From positions 19,446-83,445 of the forward strand of contig JAFZLD010000026.1 in the NCBI GenBank assembly GCA_017553505.1: a stretch of 64,000 bases of DNA, written 5' to 3'. This stretch comes from Lachnospiraceae bacterium. Lineage in GTDB: Bacteria; Bacillota; Clostridia; Lachnospirales; Lachnospiraceae. Each line of letters opens with the position of its first letter. Position 1 is the stretch's first letter. Positions 37,559 through 63,222 of this stretch are shown piece after piece. Below the pieces are notes generated by a model. The model had not been told where the DNA came from. It did not search any database and worked only from the letters and a program-made list of their open reading frames with translations. A program made the position numbers and the translations under genes.

Positions 37559-40156
37559 TCACTCCGTAATTCTTACGGAGTCAGGCAGTTTCATTGACTT
37601 TAATTCCTCGCTCTTACGCTTGCAGTCTTCCTCAAAATCTCGTGAGGACATAAGTGTGCAGCCCGCGCCTCTGATGATTACCTGCTCGACACCATCGCTG
37701 GTGACCACTATAATGTCGTACTTCTTGCCATTGTCGTGGGCATACCTTTCGATGTAGCGATCGGCTGTCTCTGCAGTCTTGGTGTAGACCACAGTTATGT
37801 TGTGGTACTTAATCTCCTCGGTGCTGTGACCGAGAACCTTGTATGCATCGAATACCAGAATCGTCTTAATGCCTGTAATGCCGCTGTAGTTGCTGACAAT
37901 GTCCATCAGGCGTCCTGCGGCGCCACCCATGTCTTTCTCGGCTATTGAATTAAGCTCTGCCCAGGCATGGACTACGTTGTAGCCGTCGATGAGCATGTAT
38001 TTTTCTTTGGCCGGGGTGCCCTTGTAAGATGTAGGCGTAGGATTAATGGGCTTACCGCCTATTCGGCGACGTTCACGCATGGCTTCGCTTATGCCTTTGT
38101 AGGAGCCTTTGCGGCCGCTTCTGTTGGCGTAGGCGGTCTTGTTGATAATCTCGTCTATCTCTTCGGTGGTGACAAAGATCTCTGCGCGCTCCTTGGATGT
38201 GGGAGCGTTTACGGGTGCCCCCGCTTCGTCTTCGTCCCGCGCCTCACCCATGAGGGGCAAGTGCATGTAATTATATACTTCGTGCCAAGGGATTACCGTA
38301 CCTGCGCCGTGTGAGCAGAATACGGAATCGGGCGTGTTGCGAAGATCGTTCTCGGGGCTGTATGCACGCGCCGCTATTACTTCCTCGGCGTTGTGGCAAG
38401 GCTCGTAGCCCGCAAGACTAACTGATAATGTACCGAGACCCTTGGTGTAAGCCGCGACTTCTTTGGCATAACCGTTGAGAGTCGATACCGGGGCCTTTCC
38501 GGTGATGATAGATATTCCGTCACGCTGCTCGGAAACCTCCGCGGTTCCCCACATTCTGTCGATGTCGGTCATGGCGCGGCCCACAGCGCTGTCGGGCACT
38601 GTCAGTTCGTAAAAATAAAACGGCTCGAGCAGAATTGACTCAGCCATCATAAGGCCCTGTCGTACAGCACGATACGTGGCCTGTCTGAAGTCGCCGCCCT
38701 CGGTATGCTTAAGGTGAGCTTTACCGGCCACCAGCGTAATCTTCATGTCGGTTATGGGCGAGCCCGTAAGAACTCCCCTGTGCTCGCGCTCGCCAAGATG
38801 TGTAAGCACCAGTCGCTGCCAGTTAAGTGCCAGGTCATCGGTGGATACGTCTGTGTCAAACTGCATGCCTGTGCCGCGGTCGAGCGGTTCCATCTTAAGG
38901 TGCACTTCCGCGTAATGTCTGAGCGGTTCAAAATGGCCGACGCCCTCGACGGTGTCCGCGATGGTTTCTTTGTACAGGATGTTGCCTACACCAAAAGAAA
39001 CCTTTATGTTGTAGCGCTCTTCTATCTCCCGGGTAAGGATTTCCGTCTGAACCTCGCCCATTAAGTGGACGTAGATTTCCCTTGTGCCTTCGTTATATTC
39101 AACTTTCAGGTTAGGCTCTTCTTCTTCAAGTTCGAGGAGGTACCTGTGCATGGCCTGACGGTCGACGTCGTCGGGATATTTCACTGCATATGTTAATACC
39201 GGTTCGATGTATGTATCCGTAACATTTGTTACATTTCCGTATGTGGAGCCGGGGCGTGAATTCTTAAGTCCCGTGACAGCCACTATGTCGGTGGCATGAG
39301 CTTCGGGAACTGCCTCGTATTTTTCGCCGGAGTAAAGTCTTATCTCGTTAATCTTCTCGTCTTCGAGCGTATCCTTAACCTTTATGGTGCCGCCCATCAG
39401 CTTAAGATGGGTAAGCCTGTTGCCTGCTTTGTCACGGGTAATCTTAAGGCAAACTGCAGCAAAAGAATCCTTAACGGGTGCCGGTCGCGAATATAGTTTC
39501 AGTGCCTCAAGGAACTCGCTCACGCCGTCACCCTTAAGTGCCGAGCCGAAAAAGACCGGGAATGCGTGGCAAGCAGCTATTGTGTCTGCGATCTCCTCGT
39601 CGGAAATCGAGCCTGTTTCCATATATTTATCAAGGAGCGATTCCGAGGCGGTAGCTATCTCCTCGTAGAAATTGTCTGTGTGAAGTTCCGAAAAGTCTAA
39701 GGCTTCGGGAGAAAGTTCTTTTCTAAGGTTCTGTAGTGACTTCTCCTTGTCAAAGCCCGGCAAATCAGTCTTGTTAACAAATATGAATGTGGGAATGTTA
39801 CGGTGTCTAAGCAGATTCCAAACGGTCTTGGTGTGGGCCTGAACACCGTCGGATGCGTTGATGATAAGAATCGCCTGGTCGCAGATATTGAGGGCTCGTT
39901 CCATTTCTCCCGAGAAATCCACGTGACCGGGAGTATCTGTAAGAATCAGTTCAACGTCCCCGAGGTTAAGCCTTGCAACCTTGGAGTAGATGGTAATTCC
40001 CCGCTCTCTTTCCCATGTGTTGTTGTCAAGGAAAGAATCCTTAGTGTCCACTCTTCCCTTTTTGCGAAGCACACCTGCCTCATACAAAAGAGCTTCCGAT
40101 AATGTAGTTTTGCCCGCGTCTACGTGGGCGAGGATACCCGTTACAATTTTACTCAT
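37559..40156 (-). CDS. Tet(M)-like translation GTPase fused to a YacP/Rae1-type NYN nuclease domain
   Basis: 865 residues from the ATG at 40156; a TTG at 40204 is rejected because it has no ribosome site and the family starts at MSKIVTGILAHVDAGKTT. Residues 1-~650 are an EF-G-like ribosomal protection factor: G1 HVDAGKTT, G3 DTPGHVDFSGE, G4 NKTDLPG, then domains II-V with RAMTDIDRMWG in the family's variant domain IV. After a linker (~650-720), residues 721-865 form an NYN/PIN-like domain: MLIDGYNVVHAW, ILVFDAYKV, TAETADRYIE and VVTSDG provide the acidic metal site of YacP (Rae1), the B. subtilis ribosome A-site mRNA endonuclease. The fusion suggests a one-chain ribosome rescue or mRNA cleavage factor. 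Tetracycline resistance is not implied. Confidence 0.9.
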   Translation of the reverse strand: MSKIVTGILAHVDAGKTTLSEALLYEAGVLRKKGRVDTKDSFLDNNTWERERGITIYSKVARLNLGDVELILTDTPGHVDFSGEMERALNICDQAILIINASDGVQAHTKTVWNLLRHRNIPTFIFVNKTDLPGFDKEKSLQNLRKELSPEALDFSELHTDNFYEEIATASESLLDKYMETGSISDEEIADTIAACHAFPVFFGSALKGDGVSEFLEALKLYSRPAPVKDSFAAVCLKITRDKAGNRLTHLKLMGGTIKVKDTLEDEKINEIRLYSGEKYEAVPEAHATDIVAVTGLKNSRPGSTYGNVTNVTDTYIEPVLTYAVKYPDDVDRQAMHRYLLELEEEEPNLKVEYNEGTREIYVHLMGEVQTEILTREIEERYNIKVSFGVGNILYKETIADTVEGVGHFEPLRHYAEVHLKMEPLDRGTGMQFDTDVSTDDLALNWQRLVLTHLGEREHRGVLTGSPITDMKITLVAGKAHLKHTEGGDFRQATYRAVRQGLMMAESILLEPFYFYELTVPDSAVGRAMTDIDRMWGTAEVSEQRDGISIITGKAPVSTLNGYAKEVAAYTKGLGTLSVSLAGYEPCHNAEEVIAARAYSPENDLRNTPDSVFCSHGAGTVIPWHEVYNYMHLPLMGEARDEDEAGAPVNAPTSKERAEIFVTTEEIDEIINKTAYANRSGRKGSYKGISEAMRERRRIGGKPINPTPTSYKGTPAKEKYMLIDGYNVVHAWAELNSIAEKDMGGAAGRLMDIVSNYSGITGIKTILVFDAYKVLGHSTEEIKYHNITVVYTKTAETADRYIERYAHDNGKKYDIIVVTSDGVEQVIIRGAGCTLMSSRDFEEDCKRKSEELKSMKLPDSVRITE

Positions 40157-40171
40157 GGGGTAATTGTAGCA
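40157..40171 (-). promoter_or_regulatory. Extended -10 element abutting the start codon (leaderless candidate)
   Basis: On the minus strand TGCTACAAT (40171-40163) is an extended -10 (TGn-TACAAT). Only six bases, TACCCC, separate it from the ATG of the GTPase-NYN gene. No Shine-Dalgarno sequence fits, so transcription may begin at or very near the A of ATG. Confidence 0.5.
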
Positions 40172-40247
40172 TAAAGCGGCGCGGGCTTCTTTCTTTTTCC
40201 GCAAATTTTATATATAATTAATCCACATTGAGTTAGGAAGGCTTATC

Positions 40248-40915: not shown

Positions 40916-42142
40916 TTACAGGCGTCCCGCTGTTTCTCTCGGCACATAGGCCTCTACATATATACCGTCTTCTCTGTAATCTTCGATTAAGAGCTTGCCG
41001 GTCTTTCTGATAAGCTGAATCTTGCCCGCTTCGGTGAAGGGGAAGGTTCTTTTTATTTCTACTTTTCTCTCGGCTAAGATGTCTTCGATAGCCTTATTGA
41101 ATTCATCGATGCCAAGTCCGGTTCTGGCAGAAATATTGATGGATTTGTAAGCACGTATGTCCTTGTAGCCGTGATTAAGTCCCGCCACATCACACTTATT
41201 AAAGAGCGTGATTACAGGGCGGCCTTCCACGTCAAGGCTGTGCAATGTGTCATAGACCACATCCATCTTGGCATAGGCTTCCGGGTCGGAGGCGTCTACT
41301 ACGTGGACGATAATGTCCGAGTACTTGGCCTCTTCAAGAGTACTCTTGAATGCCTCGATAAGGTGGTGGGGAAGCTTGTCTATAAATCCTACCGTATCGG
41401 TAAGAAGCACTTCCTCGCCGCTGTTAATTTCATACTTACGAGTAGTCGGGTCGAGCGTCGCAAAAAGCTTATCTTCGGATAACACTTCCGAGTCGGTTAA
41501 GCTGTTAAGAAGCGTGGACTTGCCGGCATTGGTATAGCCTACGATGGCAAGTACGGGGATGTTACTGCGCTCACGTCTCGCTCTGGTAACGGTTCTGTGC
41601 TTCACGATTTCTTTGAGCTCTGCTTTGAGCTTGGAGATTCGGTTCTTGACTACTCGTCTGTCCGATTCAAGCTTGGTCTCACCGGGGCCTCTGGTACCGA
41701 TACCGCCGCCGAGTCTTGACATCGACTTACCGTATCCCGCAAGTCTTGTAAGGCTGTATCTTAACTGTGCAAGTTCAACCTGAATCTTACCTTCCTGAGT
41801 CTTCGCTCTGCCGGCGAAGATATCAAGGATAAGTACTGTTCTGTCCATGACCTTGGTATCAAGAATCTTGGACATGTTATTCATCTGGGAGGGAGTCAGT
41901 TCATCGTCACAAATGATACCGGTGGCTCCCGTGGCCTCTATAAGCTCTTTAATCTCTTCAAGCTTACCTGATCCTACGTATGTTGTAGGGTGCTCGTATT
42001 CGCGAGTCTGAATTACTCTTCCGACTGTCTCGGCTCCTGCGGTCTTGGCAAGCTCGTAAAGCTCATGCAGACTTTCTTCCGCATCGGCTCCCGATGTCTC
42101 GCTTACCCCTACCAATATTACTTTCTCAATTAGTTTTTCCAT
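40916..42142 (-). CDS. hflX: HflX-type ribosome-associated GTPase
   Basis: 408 residues. The N-terminal HflX domain has GRVIQTREYEHPTTYVGSGK and ICDDELTPSQMNN. The coiled segment holds LAQLRYSLTRLAGYGKSMSRLGGGIGTRGPGE. The GTPase domain carries GYTNAGKSTL (G1), DPTTRK (G2), LTDTVGFI (G3), NKCD (G4) and SARTG (G5). The C-terminal domain is short. HflX binds 50S and splits stalled 70S ribosomes under stress. Next to the ribosome-acting GTPase-NYN gene, though separated from it by a plus-strand gene. Confidence 0.95.
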   Translation of the reverse strand: MEKLIEKVILVGVSETSGADAEESLHELYELAKTAGAETVGRVIQTREYEHPTTYVGSGKLEEIKELIEATGATGIICDDELTPSQMNNMSKILDTKVMDRTVLILDIFAGRAKTQEGKIQVELAQLRYSLTRLAGYGKSMSRLGGGIGTRGPGETKLESDRRVVKNRISKLKAELKEIVKHRTVTRARRERSNIPVLAIVGYTNAGKSTLLNSLTDSEVLSEDKLFATLDPTTRKYEINSGEEVLLTDTVGFIDKLPHHLIEAFKSTLEEAKYSDIIVHVVDASDPEAYAKMDVVYDTLHSLDVEGRPVITLFNKCDVAGLNHGYKDIRAYKSINISARTGLGIDEFNKAIEDILAERKVEIKRTFPFTEAGKIQLIRKTGKLLIEDYREDGIYVEAYVPRETAGRL

Positions 42143-49263: not shown

Positions 49264-50817
49264 TTATTTAGCGTAATCTGTAACTCTTGATTCACGAATA
49301 ACGTTAACCTTAACCATACCGGGATATTCCATCTCGTCTTCAATCTTCTTAGCAATGTCTCTGGCTAAGATGACCATGTCGGCATCGGTAATTACTTCGG
49401 GAACTACCATTACACGAACTTCTCTACCTGCCTGAATAGCAAATGATTTGTCTACACCTTTGAAATTGTTGGATATTTCTTCTAACTGTTTAAGTCTTGT
49501 GGTATAAGTTTCAAGCGTATCGCGTCTTGCACCGGGTCTTGCTGCGGAAATAGCATCGGCAGCCTGAACGATACAAGCGATAAGTGACTGAGGCTCTACG
49601 TCGCCGTGATGAGCTTCAACCGCGTTAACAACGACGTTGGATTCCTTGTACTTCTTACAGAGCTCAACGCCGAGCTGTACGTGAGTACCTTCCATATCGT
49701 GGTCAACAGCCTTACCGATATCATGAAGTAAGCCGGCACGCTTGGCAATACGAACGTCAAGTCCGATCTCGGCAGCAAGAAGTCCTGATAACTGTGCCAC
49801 CTCAATAGAATGCTTAAGGGCATTCTGACCGTAACTTGTTCTGAAACGCATTCTACCGAGAAGCTTAATGAGCTCGGGATGTAATCCGTGAACTCCCGCT
49901 TCCATACATGCGGTCTCACCTTCTTCGCGAATGAGGTTCTCAACCTCCTTCTGCGCTTTCTCAACCATTTCTTCGATTCTTGCCGGATGAATACGTCCGT
50001 CAACAATCAACTTCTCAAGGGCGATTCTCGCTACTTCACGTCTGATGGGATCGAAGCCGGAAAGAATTACTGCTTCGGGGGTATCATCGATAATCAAATC
50101 AACTCCGGTAAGGGTCTCGATGGTACGAATGTTACGACCTTCTCGACCGATAATTCTACCTTTCATCTCATCATTGGGAAGCTGTACAACGGAAATGGTA
50201 GCTTCGGATACGTGGTCGGCAGCACATTTCTGAATGGCGCCTACAATATAATCCTTGGCTTTCTTGTCCGCTTCCTCCTTGACTTTCTGCTCCATGTCTT
50301 TAATAAGCTTGGCAGATTCGATTTTTACATCATCTTCAACAATTTTAAGTAAGTGCTCTTTTGCCTGTTCAGAGGTTAATCCGGAAATTCGTTCCAGTTC
50401 CTGTATACGTTCTTCGTTGAGCTTGGCAATCTTTTCTTTCTCCTTAGCTAAGCTCTCTTCCTTGGCAGTTAAGCTCTGTTCCTTGCGTTCAATCGCTTCA
50501 GTCTTACGATCGATGTTCTCTTCCTTCTGCTGGATACGGCGTTCGTTGCGCTGTATCTCGGCGCGGCGTTCCTTAATCTCTCGGTCTAAGTCGTTCTTGG
50601 TACGAATGGACTCTTCCTTAATTTCAAGTAGGCTTTCACGCTTTTTGGATTCTGCTTCACGAAGAGCTTCATCAATTATCTCTCTGGCCTTGGCATCTGC
50701 ATTGCCAATCTTGGCATTCTGCTCTCTGATGCGCTTGGTGTTAACAGCCACGATTAATGAAGCTGCAAGGACGGCTACTACTGCTATGGCTAAGAATACG
50801 ATTTCCATCGTAGTCAT
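49264..50817 (-). CDS. rny: Ribonuclease Y
   Basis: 517 residues from the ATG at 50817 (AAGGAGG upstream); an upstream in-frame start at 50880 is rejected. One N-terminal TM helix (about 5-25), then a long coiled coil (30-190) rich in Glu/Arg. A KH domain ([21 protein letters not shown]) precedes the HD domain ([29 protein letters not shown]). Membrane-bound endoribonuclease that starts mRNA decay in Firmicutes. It lies downstream of recX with its own ribosome site, a normal position in this group. Confidence 0.96.
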
Positions 50818-50966
50818 ACAGGAGTACCTCCTTATTAAATTATTGCGAGTATATAGGTAAGGATGCTCGCATCCTGACAAACATGTTCACAACATAGAAA
50901 TTTTATCTAAAAAAACAAGTTATGTCAAGTAAATGTACCCCATCGCCTTTAGAAATATTTAAGAAT

Positions 50967-61485: not shown

Positions 61486-63222
61486 ATGGCTTTCGATGCA
61501 ATTACGGTCGCCGCTTTGACACGAGAATTAAGCGACACCTTTCAGAATACAAGAATATACAAAATTTCCGAGCCCGACCAAAACGAGCTTATCCTTACCA
61601 TCAAGGGTAACTCCTCTCAGTACAGGCTCTTAATCTCCGCGGACGCTTCTCTCCCGCTTATGTATCTTACGAGCGAGAACAAGCCCTCGCCTCTTACCGC
61701 GCCCAATTTTTGTATGCTTCTTAGGAAGCACTTATCCAATGCCAAGATTATATCTGTAACCCAGCCGGGGCTTGAGCGTATTATCCGTATCGAGCTTGAG
61801 CACCTCGACGAAATGGGCGATTTGTGCCGTAAGAACCTTGTAGTGGAGCTTATGGGCAAGCATTCGAACATTATTTTTACGGATGCCGAGGACAATATCA
61901 TCGACTCAATTAAGCATGTATCTCACAATGTAAGCTCCGTGCGTGAAGTTCTGCCCGGTCGCAAGTATTTCATACCGCATACGCAGGATAAGCAGGACCC
62001 CTTCGGTGTCGATGCAGGTTCTTTTGCCGCTACTATTGCAGGTGCGCATGAGCCTGCGGGTAAGGCGATTTACATGAACTATACGGGCTTCTCTCCCATC
62101 CTCGCTACCGAGGTATGTTACCGTGCGGGCGTGGATGCAGATGCGTCGACTTCGTCGCTGTCAGAGTCGGAGGTTGCGGCTTTGTATGATGCTTTTGCCG
62201 CACTGGTGGCTGACGTGCGTGAGGGCCGCTTCGCGCCCGAGATTATCTATGACGGCTCGGCACCGTTAGAATACGCGGCAGTTCCGCTTACTCTGTACCA
62301 CGACAAGAGCGTAAAGGCGTACGATTCCATATCTTCTCTCATAGAGGATTTCTACCGCGAGAAAAGCGTGGTCGTGCGCATCCGACAGAAATCCGCCGAC
62401 CTTCGCAAGATTGTCACCACCGCTCTCGAACGTAACGTTAAGAAACTTGACCTGCAAAAGAAACAGCTCGAAGATACCGAGAAAAAGGACAAATTCCGCA
62501 TCTACGGCGAGCTCATCAACACCTACGGCTACACCGTTCCCGAAGGCGCCAAGTCCTTCGAGGCGCTTAATTACTATACGAATGAAACCATTACGATACC
62601 TCTCGACCCCGATATGACGGCTCTCGAGAACGGTAAGAAATACTTTGAAAAATACTCGAAGCTTAAGCGTACAGCCGAGTCTCTCACCGGCATCATTGAG
62701 GAAGTCTCTGACGAAGTGGCTCAGCTTGAATCGATTCTCACATCCCTCGATATCGCTGTCGACGAGGCCGACCTTGCCGAGATTAAAGAAGAGCTTACCC
62801 AGTCCGGCTACATCCGTTTCAAAGCCGGCACCAAGAAACAAAAAATCACCTCGAAACCCTTCCACTTCGTAAGCTCCGACGGCTTCGACATCTACGTAGG
62901 CCGCAACAACCTTCAGAACGACCGTTTAACCTTCGAATTTGCCAACGGTGGCGACTGGTGGTTCCACGCCAAGAAAATGCCCGGCTCCCACGTAATCGTT
63001 AGAACCGAAGGCCGCGAAGTTCCCGACCGCACCTTCGAAGAAGCCGCCCGCCTCGCCGCTCACTTCTCCAAAGGTCGTGGCACCGACCGAGTCGAAATCG
63101 ACTACTTACTTCGTAAGAACGTCAAGAAACCCGCCAAAGCCAAGCCCGGCTTCGTGGTGTACTACACCAATTACTCTATGGTGATAGATGATGACATTTC
63201 AAAAATAAAGCAGGTGGACTAG
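61486..63222 (+). CDS. rqcH: Rqc2 homologue RqcH (NFACT protein)
   Basis: 578 residues from the ATG at 61486 (AAGGA upstream); the longer frame start at 61429 overlaps the promoter and is rejected. The NFACT-N domain begins MAFDAITVAALTRELSDTF. A middle helix-hairpin-helix and coiled coil (about 290-440) follow, then the NFACT-R domain at the C-terminus with DIYVGRNNLQNDRLTFEFANG and DWWFHAKKMPGSHVIV. Binds split 50S with peptidyl-tRNA and adds alanine tails for degradation of stalled chains. Confidence 0.95.
   Translation: MAFDAITVAALTRELSDTFQNTRIYKISEPDQNELILTIKGNSSQYRLLISADASLPLMYLTSENKPSPLTAPNFCMLLRKHLSNAKIISVTQPGLERIIRIELEHLDEMGDLCRKNLVVELMGKHSNIIFTDAEDNIIDSIKHVSHNVSSVREVLPGRKYFIPHTQDKQDPFGVDAGSFAATIAGAHEPAGKAIYMNYTGFSPILATEVCYRAGVDADASTSSLSESEVAALYDAFAALVADVREGRFAPEIIYDGSAPLEYAAVPLTLYHDKSVKAYDSISSLIEDFYREKSVVVRIRQKSADLRKIVTTALERNVKKLDLQKKQLEDTEKKDKFRIYGELINTYGYTVPEGAKSFEALNYYTNETITIPLDPDMTALENGKKYFEKYSKLKRTAESLTGIIEEVSDEVAQLESILTSLDIAVDEADLAEIKEELTQSGYIRFKAGTKKQKITSKPFHFVSSDGFDIYVGRNNLQNDRLTFEFANGGDWWFHAKKMPGSHVIVRTEGREVPDRTFEEAARLAAHFSKGRGTDRVEIDYLLRKNVKKPAKAKPGFVVYYTNYSMVIDDDISKIKQVD

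Follow-up and report, generated by a model that had tools for sequence, protein, structure and literature searches.

A Rae1-type nuclease carried by a translational GTPase in Lachnospiraceae, and its most likely origin at the rlmB locus

Why should a GTPase with the fold of elongation factor EF-G be joined in one polypeptide to a nuclease domain of the Rae1/YacP type? The question is raised by a gene at 37559..40156 (minus strand) of a 64,000-nucleotide stretch from a Lachnospiraceae bacterium (GenBank assembly GCA_017553505.1, contig JAFZLD010000026.1, positions 19,446 to 83,445 of the forward strand), referred to below as the window; the genome comprises 3.13 Mb in 28 contigs. A first-pass annotation, made from the sequence without database searches, had proposed a Tet(M)-like GTPase of 650 residues followed by an NYN nuclease domain with four acidic residues in place. 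The fusion itself holds good: the open reading frame (ORF) is intact, from the ATG at 40156 to the stop at 37559 (865 amino acids, aa), and Pfam finds the same architecture. Homology to translational GTPases runs to about residue 636, not 650, and a linker of about 84 residues comes next. The fusion is not a chance product, because relatives share its architecture at 97, 89 and 46–53% identity in seven named Lachnospiraceae records, the 97% identical protein coming from Lachnospiraceae bacterium YSD2013. We propose, with a probability of about one half, that the protein is the Rae1 of this lineage, moved from the rlmB operon onto an EF-G-family GTPase, and that it acts in a cycle in which the GTPase clears the ribosomal A site and the nuclease then cuts. 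Its parts are the following:

37559..40156, minus strand: fusion gene, EF-G-fold translational GTPase plus NYN/Rae1 nuclease, 865 aa (ORF and Pfam)
39491..40141, minus strand: G domain, residues 6–222 (Pfam GTP_EFTU, E 5e-50)
38990..39205, minus strand: EF-G domain III, residues 318–389 (Pfam EFG_III)
38642..38983, minus strand: EF-G domain IV, residues 392–505 (Pfam EFG_IV)
38906..38938, minus strand: first tip of domain IV, GHFEPLRHYAE, residues 407–417, a subfamily signature (alignment)
38684..38716, minus strand: second tip of domain IV, HLKHTEGGDFR, residues 481–491 (alignment to the Tet(M) chain)
38390..38632, minus strand: EF-G domain V, residues 509–589 (Pfam EFG_C)
38249..38389, minus strand: conserved C-terminal extension of the GTPase, residues 590–636, SVFCxHGAGxxxxWxxVxxYMH (ends of relatives; alignment)
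38000..38248, minus strand: variable, charged linker, residues 637–719 (measured in 28 fused proteins)
38114..38161, minus strand: short conserved linker motif EIDEIINKTAYANRSG, family form ELEEIFERTYGPIKRR (pattern counts)
37595..37996, minus strand: NYN_YacP/Rae1 nuclease domain, residues 721–854, with D724, D770, D799 and D821 (Pfam, match to 5mq8/5mq9, conservation)

The Rae1 identity of the NYN domain is well supported by sequence comparison. Pfam NYN_YacP matches it with 148 bits against a curated cut-off of 24.6 (E 3e-43), and its best match among solved structures is B. subtilis YacP (5mq8/5mq9, E 2e-16). Counted on the printed alignment, D724, D770, D799 and D821 stand opposite D7, D53, D81 and D104 of the B. 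subtilis chain. All four aspartates, and with them the acidic residues noted in the first-pass annotation, are conserved in 28 of 28 fused proteins (a set in which the window protein and its two near copies, L032 and L033, are counted as three), in the seven standalone Lachnospiraceae sequences and in 24 of 24 other standalone sequences. According to the accessible parts of PMC6613710 and PMC12320835, Rae1 of B. subtilis cuts messenger RNA (mRNA) in the A site, and PMC11780869 names S1025 among its substrates; by homology the fused domain would be an A-site mRNA nuclease as well.

No YacP other than the fusion was found in the genome of the window, and across the family the fused form is the common one. 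Among 150 Lachnospiraceae genera sampled, 137 carry YacP, and 124 of these 137 carry it fused as judged by frame length (NYN in an open frame of at least 800 aa); the domain lies in frames of 516–690 aa in three and of less than 300 aa in ten. The GTPase profile, built from domains IV–V plus the extension (A1, 26 rows), is also matched by 123 of the 124, the exception being a very diverged fusion (G546) with no match at 1e-35. Seven of the ten short-frame genomes have full standalone genes of 174–185 aa; G475 has its NYN match near a contig edge, and G430 has GTPase and NYN in two frames of one contig. Odd cases are G512, with the NYN domain in a 690-aa frame that lacks a subfamily match, and G451, with it in a 260-aa frame. 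A sample of 398 genomes from the phylum contains 219 with YacP at E ≤ 0.001, of which 215 score above the cut-off and at least 28 are fused (frames of 850 aa or more). Copy number is usually one, as two YacP matches occur in only two of the 219. A second YacP match was found in none of the 28 fused genomes of this sample, against YacP in 191 of its 370 non-fused genomes at the same threshold (Fisher p 5e-9, kinship ignored). No complete second YacP gene was seen in the family survey, G427 being the one genome where it is not fully excluded; the double matches in G427, G458, G507 and G542 are a contig-edge piece, a weak match or hits to the same frame.

The gene order around the standalone copies suggests where the fused domain came from. 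Of the seven standalone yacP genes in Lachnospiraceae, six follow rlmB immediately, five of them with cysS and mrnC before rlmB (not L132), and in four (L129, L130, L132 and L133) a sigH-like gene follows downstream; L128 has none of this rlmB/cysS/mrnC/sigH context (the gene names were read from the sequences, without a family scan). In B. subtilis, rae1 is the neighbour of yacO, which encodes the RlmB homologue, and the two share a transcript (PMC6613710, accessible part). RlmB was sought in 24 fused genomes and matched in 23. At none of these 23 loci was a yacP found in the 1.5 kb read on each side with the proteins of L130; sigH is the next recognised gene, at most 350 bases after rlmB, in 19 of them, including the window genome (L255), and was not found in range of rlmB in L259, L266, L267 and L268. 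On trees of the NYN domain, the fused and standalone copies from Lachnospiraceae group in a single clade (100/100), apart from the 24 other standalone sequences, once four long or odd fused rows (L145, L149, L153 and L154) are dropped; with these rows kept, the four fall outside the Lachnospiraceae clade. Since yacP is absent from the rlmB locus of fused genomes and standalone copies sit behind rlmB, the most likely origin of the fused domain is the lineage's own Rae1, relocated: it is the sole copy found, it is missing from the rlmB locus and it groups with the standalone Lachnospiraceae copies. On the same grounds (YacP as best solved match, only YacP in the genome, absence from the rlmB locus) the nuclease assignment of the first-pass annotation is upheld. 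Whether the standalone Lachnospiraceae domains might instead be broken-off fusions is a point on which the evidence is divided. A first tree nests them in the fused clade, they become its sister with weak support (62/27) when the four rows are dropped, and a position behind rlmB favours an ancestral state.

Compared with B. subtilis Rae1/YacP (5mq8, 5mq9), the fused form thus has the same domain, the same four acidic residues and usually one copy per genome, but it is C-terminal on a GTPase, lies away from rlmB and often has a shortened C-terminal tail. The tail after the VTSD motif measures 65–72 aa in 30 standalone sequences (of 31, one having no match to the motif) and 34–57 aa in 16 of the 28 fused proteins, among them the window protein and its two near copies; none of the 30 standalone sequences has a tail so shortened. 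In the window protein, whose Rae1 tail is shortened, the Pfam NYN_YacP match ends at position 136 of 166; among 123 fused proteins tallied from the family, it stops short of position 150 in 45 (G542, which is in two pieces, is left out of this tally). We do not treat the tail as family-defining for Rae1/YacP, because 12 of the 28 fused relatives retain it in full. One of the rae1 suppressor mutations known from B. subtilis, R166P, changes the tail, and its authors interpret these suppressors as loss of function (PMC6613710, accessible part). Shortening is what would be expected if the GTPase had taken over docking, and the GTPase may in this way have made the Rae1 tail dispensable.

The GTPase half has intact G-domain motifs (P-loop AHVDAGKTT, DTPGH with His78, and NKTD), and His78 is present in the alignment in 28 of 28 fused and 12 of 12 unfused GTPases; its domain II is matched weakly (Pfam EF-G_D2, 22 bits against a cut-off of 27). 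In the phylum sample, members of the subfamily score at least 260 bits with the profile (except G334, 192), versus at most 136 bits for other EF-G and Tet proteins. In the family sample, G479 reaches 186 bits with one half of a gene that is split, and G451, with 141 bits in a 644-aa frame, was not counted as a member. A tree of 55 GTPase rows places the 28 fused proteins in one clade (95/76) and 11 unfused ones in another (100/98), with the twelfth unfused row, L127, outside both and the EF-G and Tet proteins outside as well (100/99). By this tree the GTPase is a subfamily of its own, in a clade apart from the EF-G and Tet proteins sampled. It has the domain order and GTPase motifs of EF-G, and shares His481 of domain IV (14 of 15 EF-G/Tet outgroup rows have H there), but it forms a separate clade, has different tips and reaches only 293 of the 659 bits required by the NCBIfam EF-G model TIGR00484; two further genes of the window genome (L155 and L156) group with EF-G on the tree. 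The first tip, GHFEPLRHYAE, is exact in 23 of 28 fused and 7 of 12 unfused proteins and different in the EF-G and Tet rows; together with the second, HxKHTEGGDFR, it is nearly invariant in fused and unfused forms and unlike EF-G and Tet. The extension is absent from the eight EF-G rows. Eleven of the 12 unfused relatives end at about residue 636 of the query, just past the SVFC...YMH extension (L127 differs), and these ends therefore mark the point where the nuclease was added. A zinc site in the extension (C587, C614, H616 and H632) was considered and discarded, H616 being H in 20 of 28 fused proteins and K in 12 of 12 unfused ones. A further Tet-like class of GTPases was seen beside these (L157–L162, 659–683 aa), with tips such as TMPKPCWA and HHVWHTHPLDF; L162, the one scanned, scores 602 against the NCBI Tet cut-off of 775.

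The linker between the two halves measures 70–121 aa in the 28 fused proteins (median 85.5, from the residue-632 column to the NYN start). It contains the short motif in two forms, ELEEIFERTYGPIKRR and EIDQIINxTFYANQGK; a strict pattern finds it in 42 of 59 rows, or 37 of 54 distinct genes (five genes being present twice), and looser forms are visible by eye in many others.

With these parts, the proposed cycle would run as follows. The GTPase would bind a paused 70S ribosome at the factor site, and domain IV, which by relation to EF-G and the Tet proteins would be the part entering the A site, would insert its subfamily-specific tips there and displace or rearrange the contents. After GTP hydrolysis the GTPase would withdraw, and the NYN domain on its tether of 70–120 residues would enter the emptied A site and cut the A-site codon. 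A non-stop complex would be left for transfer-messenger RNA (tmRNA), which is present in the genome (142.8 bits, above cut-off), or for RqcH. Entry of the GTPase into the A site is proposed by analogy with the EF-G/Tet fold; the order of clearing and cutting, and the kind of stall that would be recognised, are pure inference.

Several observations weigh against this proposal. In structural models the A site that EF-G domain IV enters is also the one that Rae1 would use, and the two halves could therefore not act at once on one ribosome; they would need the site in turn, for which the linker appears long enough in principle. Twelve of the 28 fused domains keep the full Rae1 tail, G402 has the nuclease without the GTPase, and the standalone Lachnospiraceae domains could be either older than the fusion or split from it. 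Among the matches listed from an open-licence library, we found no experiment on any member. The distribution of the unfused GTPase is ambiguous too. Seven Lachnospiraceae genomes have a standalone YacP, and six of these carry the unfused GTPase as well (spread over two frames in G479), against none of 13 YacP-less genomes (Fisher p 2e-4, or 5e-4 with G451 taken as negative, kinship ignored), but this co-occurrence rests on few independent events. In the phylum sample it disappears: YacP is found in four of seven genomes with an unfused GTPase versus 187 of 363 other non-fused genomes (p 1.0). In favour of coupling, no fused genome in the family sample has a second GTPase gene, the double matches in G407 and G543 being pieces of one frame; in the phylum sample, fused G367 has a second GTPase piece (265 bits, in a 220-aa frame with a stop). 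Finally, a quick tree places two GTPases without a nuclease, L170 and L171, inside the fused clade.

These observations bear on the strongest alternative, according to which Rae1 works as in B. subtilis, the GTPase has an unrelated ribosomal job, and the fusion merely raises local concentration or co-regulates the two. As the GTPase does not track YacP across the phylum, its function would be a separate one, and fusion could serve co-localisation only. The GTPase without YacP in G357, G312 and G334, the nuclease-free L170 and L171, the same tips in fused and unfused forms and a long, variable linker all fit this explanation. It accounts less well for a single fused clade retained, by frame length, in 124 of 137 YacP-bearing genera, for tails shortened in 16 of 28 proteins and for a conserved linker motif, and we regard it as possible though on the unlikely side. 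As to L170 and L171, both are virus-database records that begin (1–2178 in each) with a fused-clade GTPase ending just past the extension; L170 has 62% GC, and no NYN domain was found in either record. Other sequence follows directly behind the GTPase in both, and the 3' end of the gene may be a prophage attachment site. Another hint that GTPase genes are integration sites comes from L210 (1771–5301), where two ORFs, at least one of them recombinase-like by eye, lie near a related N-terminal GTPase fragment at a viral contig end.

A second alternative is an antibiotic-resistance factor whose RNase acts on ribosomal RNA (rRNA), as suggested by Atkinson 2015 (PMC4342817, accessible part), and a Tet-like fold would agree with it. 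The protein does share the EF-G-like domain order of Tet(M), Tet(O) and Tet(W), which are its closest solved chains, and the label "Tet(M)-like" of the first-pass annotation is right for the fold; identity to the Tet-type genes among the phage matches listed is 29.5–31.8%. The NCBIfam tet_protect model gives the window protein 413 of the 775 bits required, and the four fused or unfused members tested 413–430, whereas G131, one of the genomes with the fusion, also encodes a genuine Tet protein (L166), which scores 819. Lys483 aligns with Tet(M) Pro509, a residue reported in the tetracycline site (PMC8161019, accessible part); the position is K in 25 of 28 fused proteins and P in no fused or unfused one. 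Since the Tet model fails where a genuine Tet protein passes, and since the domain IV tips differ, the GTPase is by the tests run not a tetracycline-protection protein, and ligand ejection of the Tet(M) type, as first suggested, finds no counterpart in the tips or at the Pro509 position. With other tips, an extension and nuclease of its own, a presence in most family genera sampled and an NYN domain of Rae1 type, the fusion is improbable as a resistance factor. About equally improbable is the idea first proposed for YacP and cited in PMC4342817 (accessible part), namely that the NYN domain matures rRNA or transfer RNA, the GTPase then being a ribosome-assembly factor: standalone yacP has genes for rRNA enzymes as neighbours (read as mrnC and rlmB), but the Rae1 of B. 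subtilis is reported to cut mRNA in the A site (PMC6613710, PMC12320835, accessible parts). An anti-phage or stress shut-off effector that destroys mRNA wholesale once the GTPase senses a blocked ribosome is very improbable, for although an A-site nuclease on a ribosome sensor could do so, nothing direct points to it, no PADLOC family (of the defence-system collection) is matched by the fusion, and the fusion is found in most genera sampled; the "defence" role of the first-pass annotation is likewise not supported.

Nor does the surrounding DNA lend support to a rescue role, for which the first-pass annotation had invoked rqcH and hflX. HflX is encoded at 40919–42142, past a divergent CxxCxxCC gene, but hflX is near the fusion in only three of 27 other fused loci (the near-identical L032 and L033, plus L146), and RqcH, at about 61495–62844, is 21 kb away. 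This gene order is not common to other genera and is thus no evidence of function. Downstream neighbours are a thioesterase and SufC/SufB-like genes, and RNase Y is encoded at 49267–50880, 9 kb from the fusion, an arrangement seen among the compared loci in L033 only. Of six neighbours scanned against PADLOC two matched, HflX weakly (LeoBC, 27 bits) and the SufC-like ABC ATPase (mad3, 87 bits, plus nine weaker); in view of the neighbours' Pfam calls we read these matches as general GTPase/ATPase similarity. At 0.51, the GC content of the fusion gene lies about 1.6 standard deviations above the window mean of 0.46; its third-position GC content is 0.58, about 1.1 standard deviations above the mean of 0.51.

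Immediately upstream of the start codon stands TATGCTACAATTACCCC (40154–40173, minus strand), which holds an extended -10-like element and no Shine-Dalgarno sequence and is kept in L032 and L033; from the sequence, the fusion mRNA may be leaderless in this genus. Eighteen of the 27 other fused loci, counting L032 and L033, have a Shine-Dalgarno-like site (start codons were guessed, and none was found in two). Promoter and terminator scans stayed at or below chance, and repeats yielded nothing of note. A phage origin was considered and set aside: among phage records 110 matched, two of them over at least 80% of the protein (H1, 52%; H2, 48%); these are unannotated faecal scaffolds, one marked unverified, which may be phage or host DNA, and the H1 record holds the NYN domain. 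A search of viral contigs with the whole protein returned the best 80 of 98 loci, of which five were inspected (L170, L171, L202, L210 and L217); an NYN profile search of viral contigs found none.

The architecture is not new, having been in print since 2015. Atkinson 2015 (PMC4342817) lists it in ten Clostridiales species, as "Tet proteins" that carry an NYN domain resembling YacP. Added here, and not present in the accessible part of that paper, are the findings that yacP is missing from its operon, that the unfused proteins form a clade of their own and that the tips are distinct, as well as how frequent the fusion is in Lachnospiraceae. The comparison with Rae1, described in 2017, was the contribution of the first-pass annotation to this known architecture. 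It may be, however, that the fusion is already described in a 2018 article on the distribution of Rae1 by Condon, Piton and Braun.

On our reading of the field, the question that this protein appears to build into one polypeptide is by what means Rae1 reaches an A site that is occupied or paused. The fusion marks a widespread subfamily of translation factors, uncharacterised as far as we found, in a major family of the gut and rumen, which the 2015 survey grouped with tetracycline-resistance proteins. Tentatively, and at somewhat less than even odds, the protein may be a single-molecule ribosome-rescue machine, in which a new class of translational GTPase, distinct from EF-G and Tet, would open the stalled A site with its domain IV and hand it to a tethered Rae1; nuclease access would then be regulated and driven by GTP, and the fusion would be the standing housekeeping Rae1 of Lachnospiraceae.

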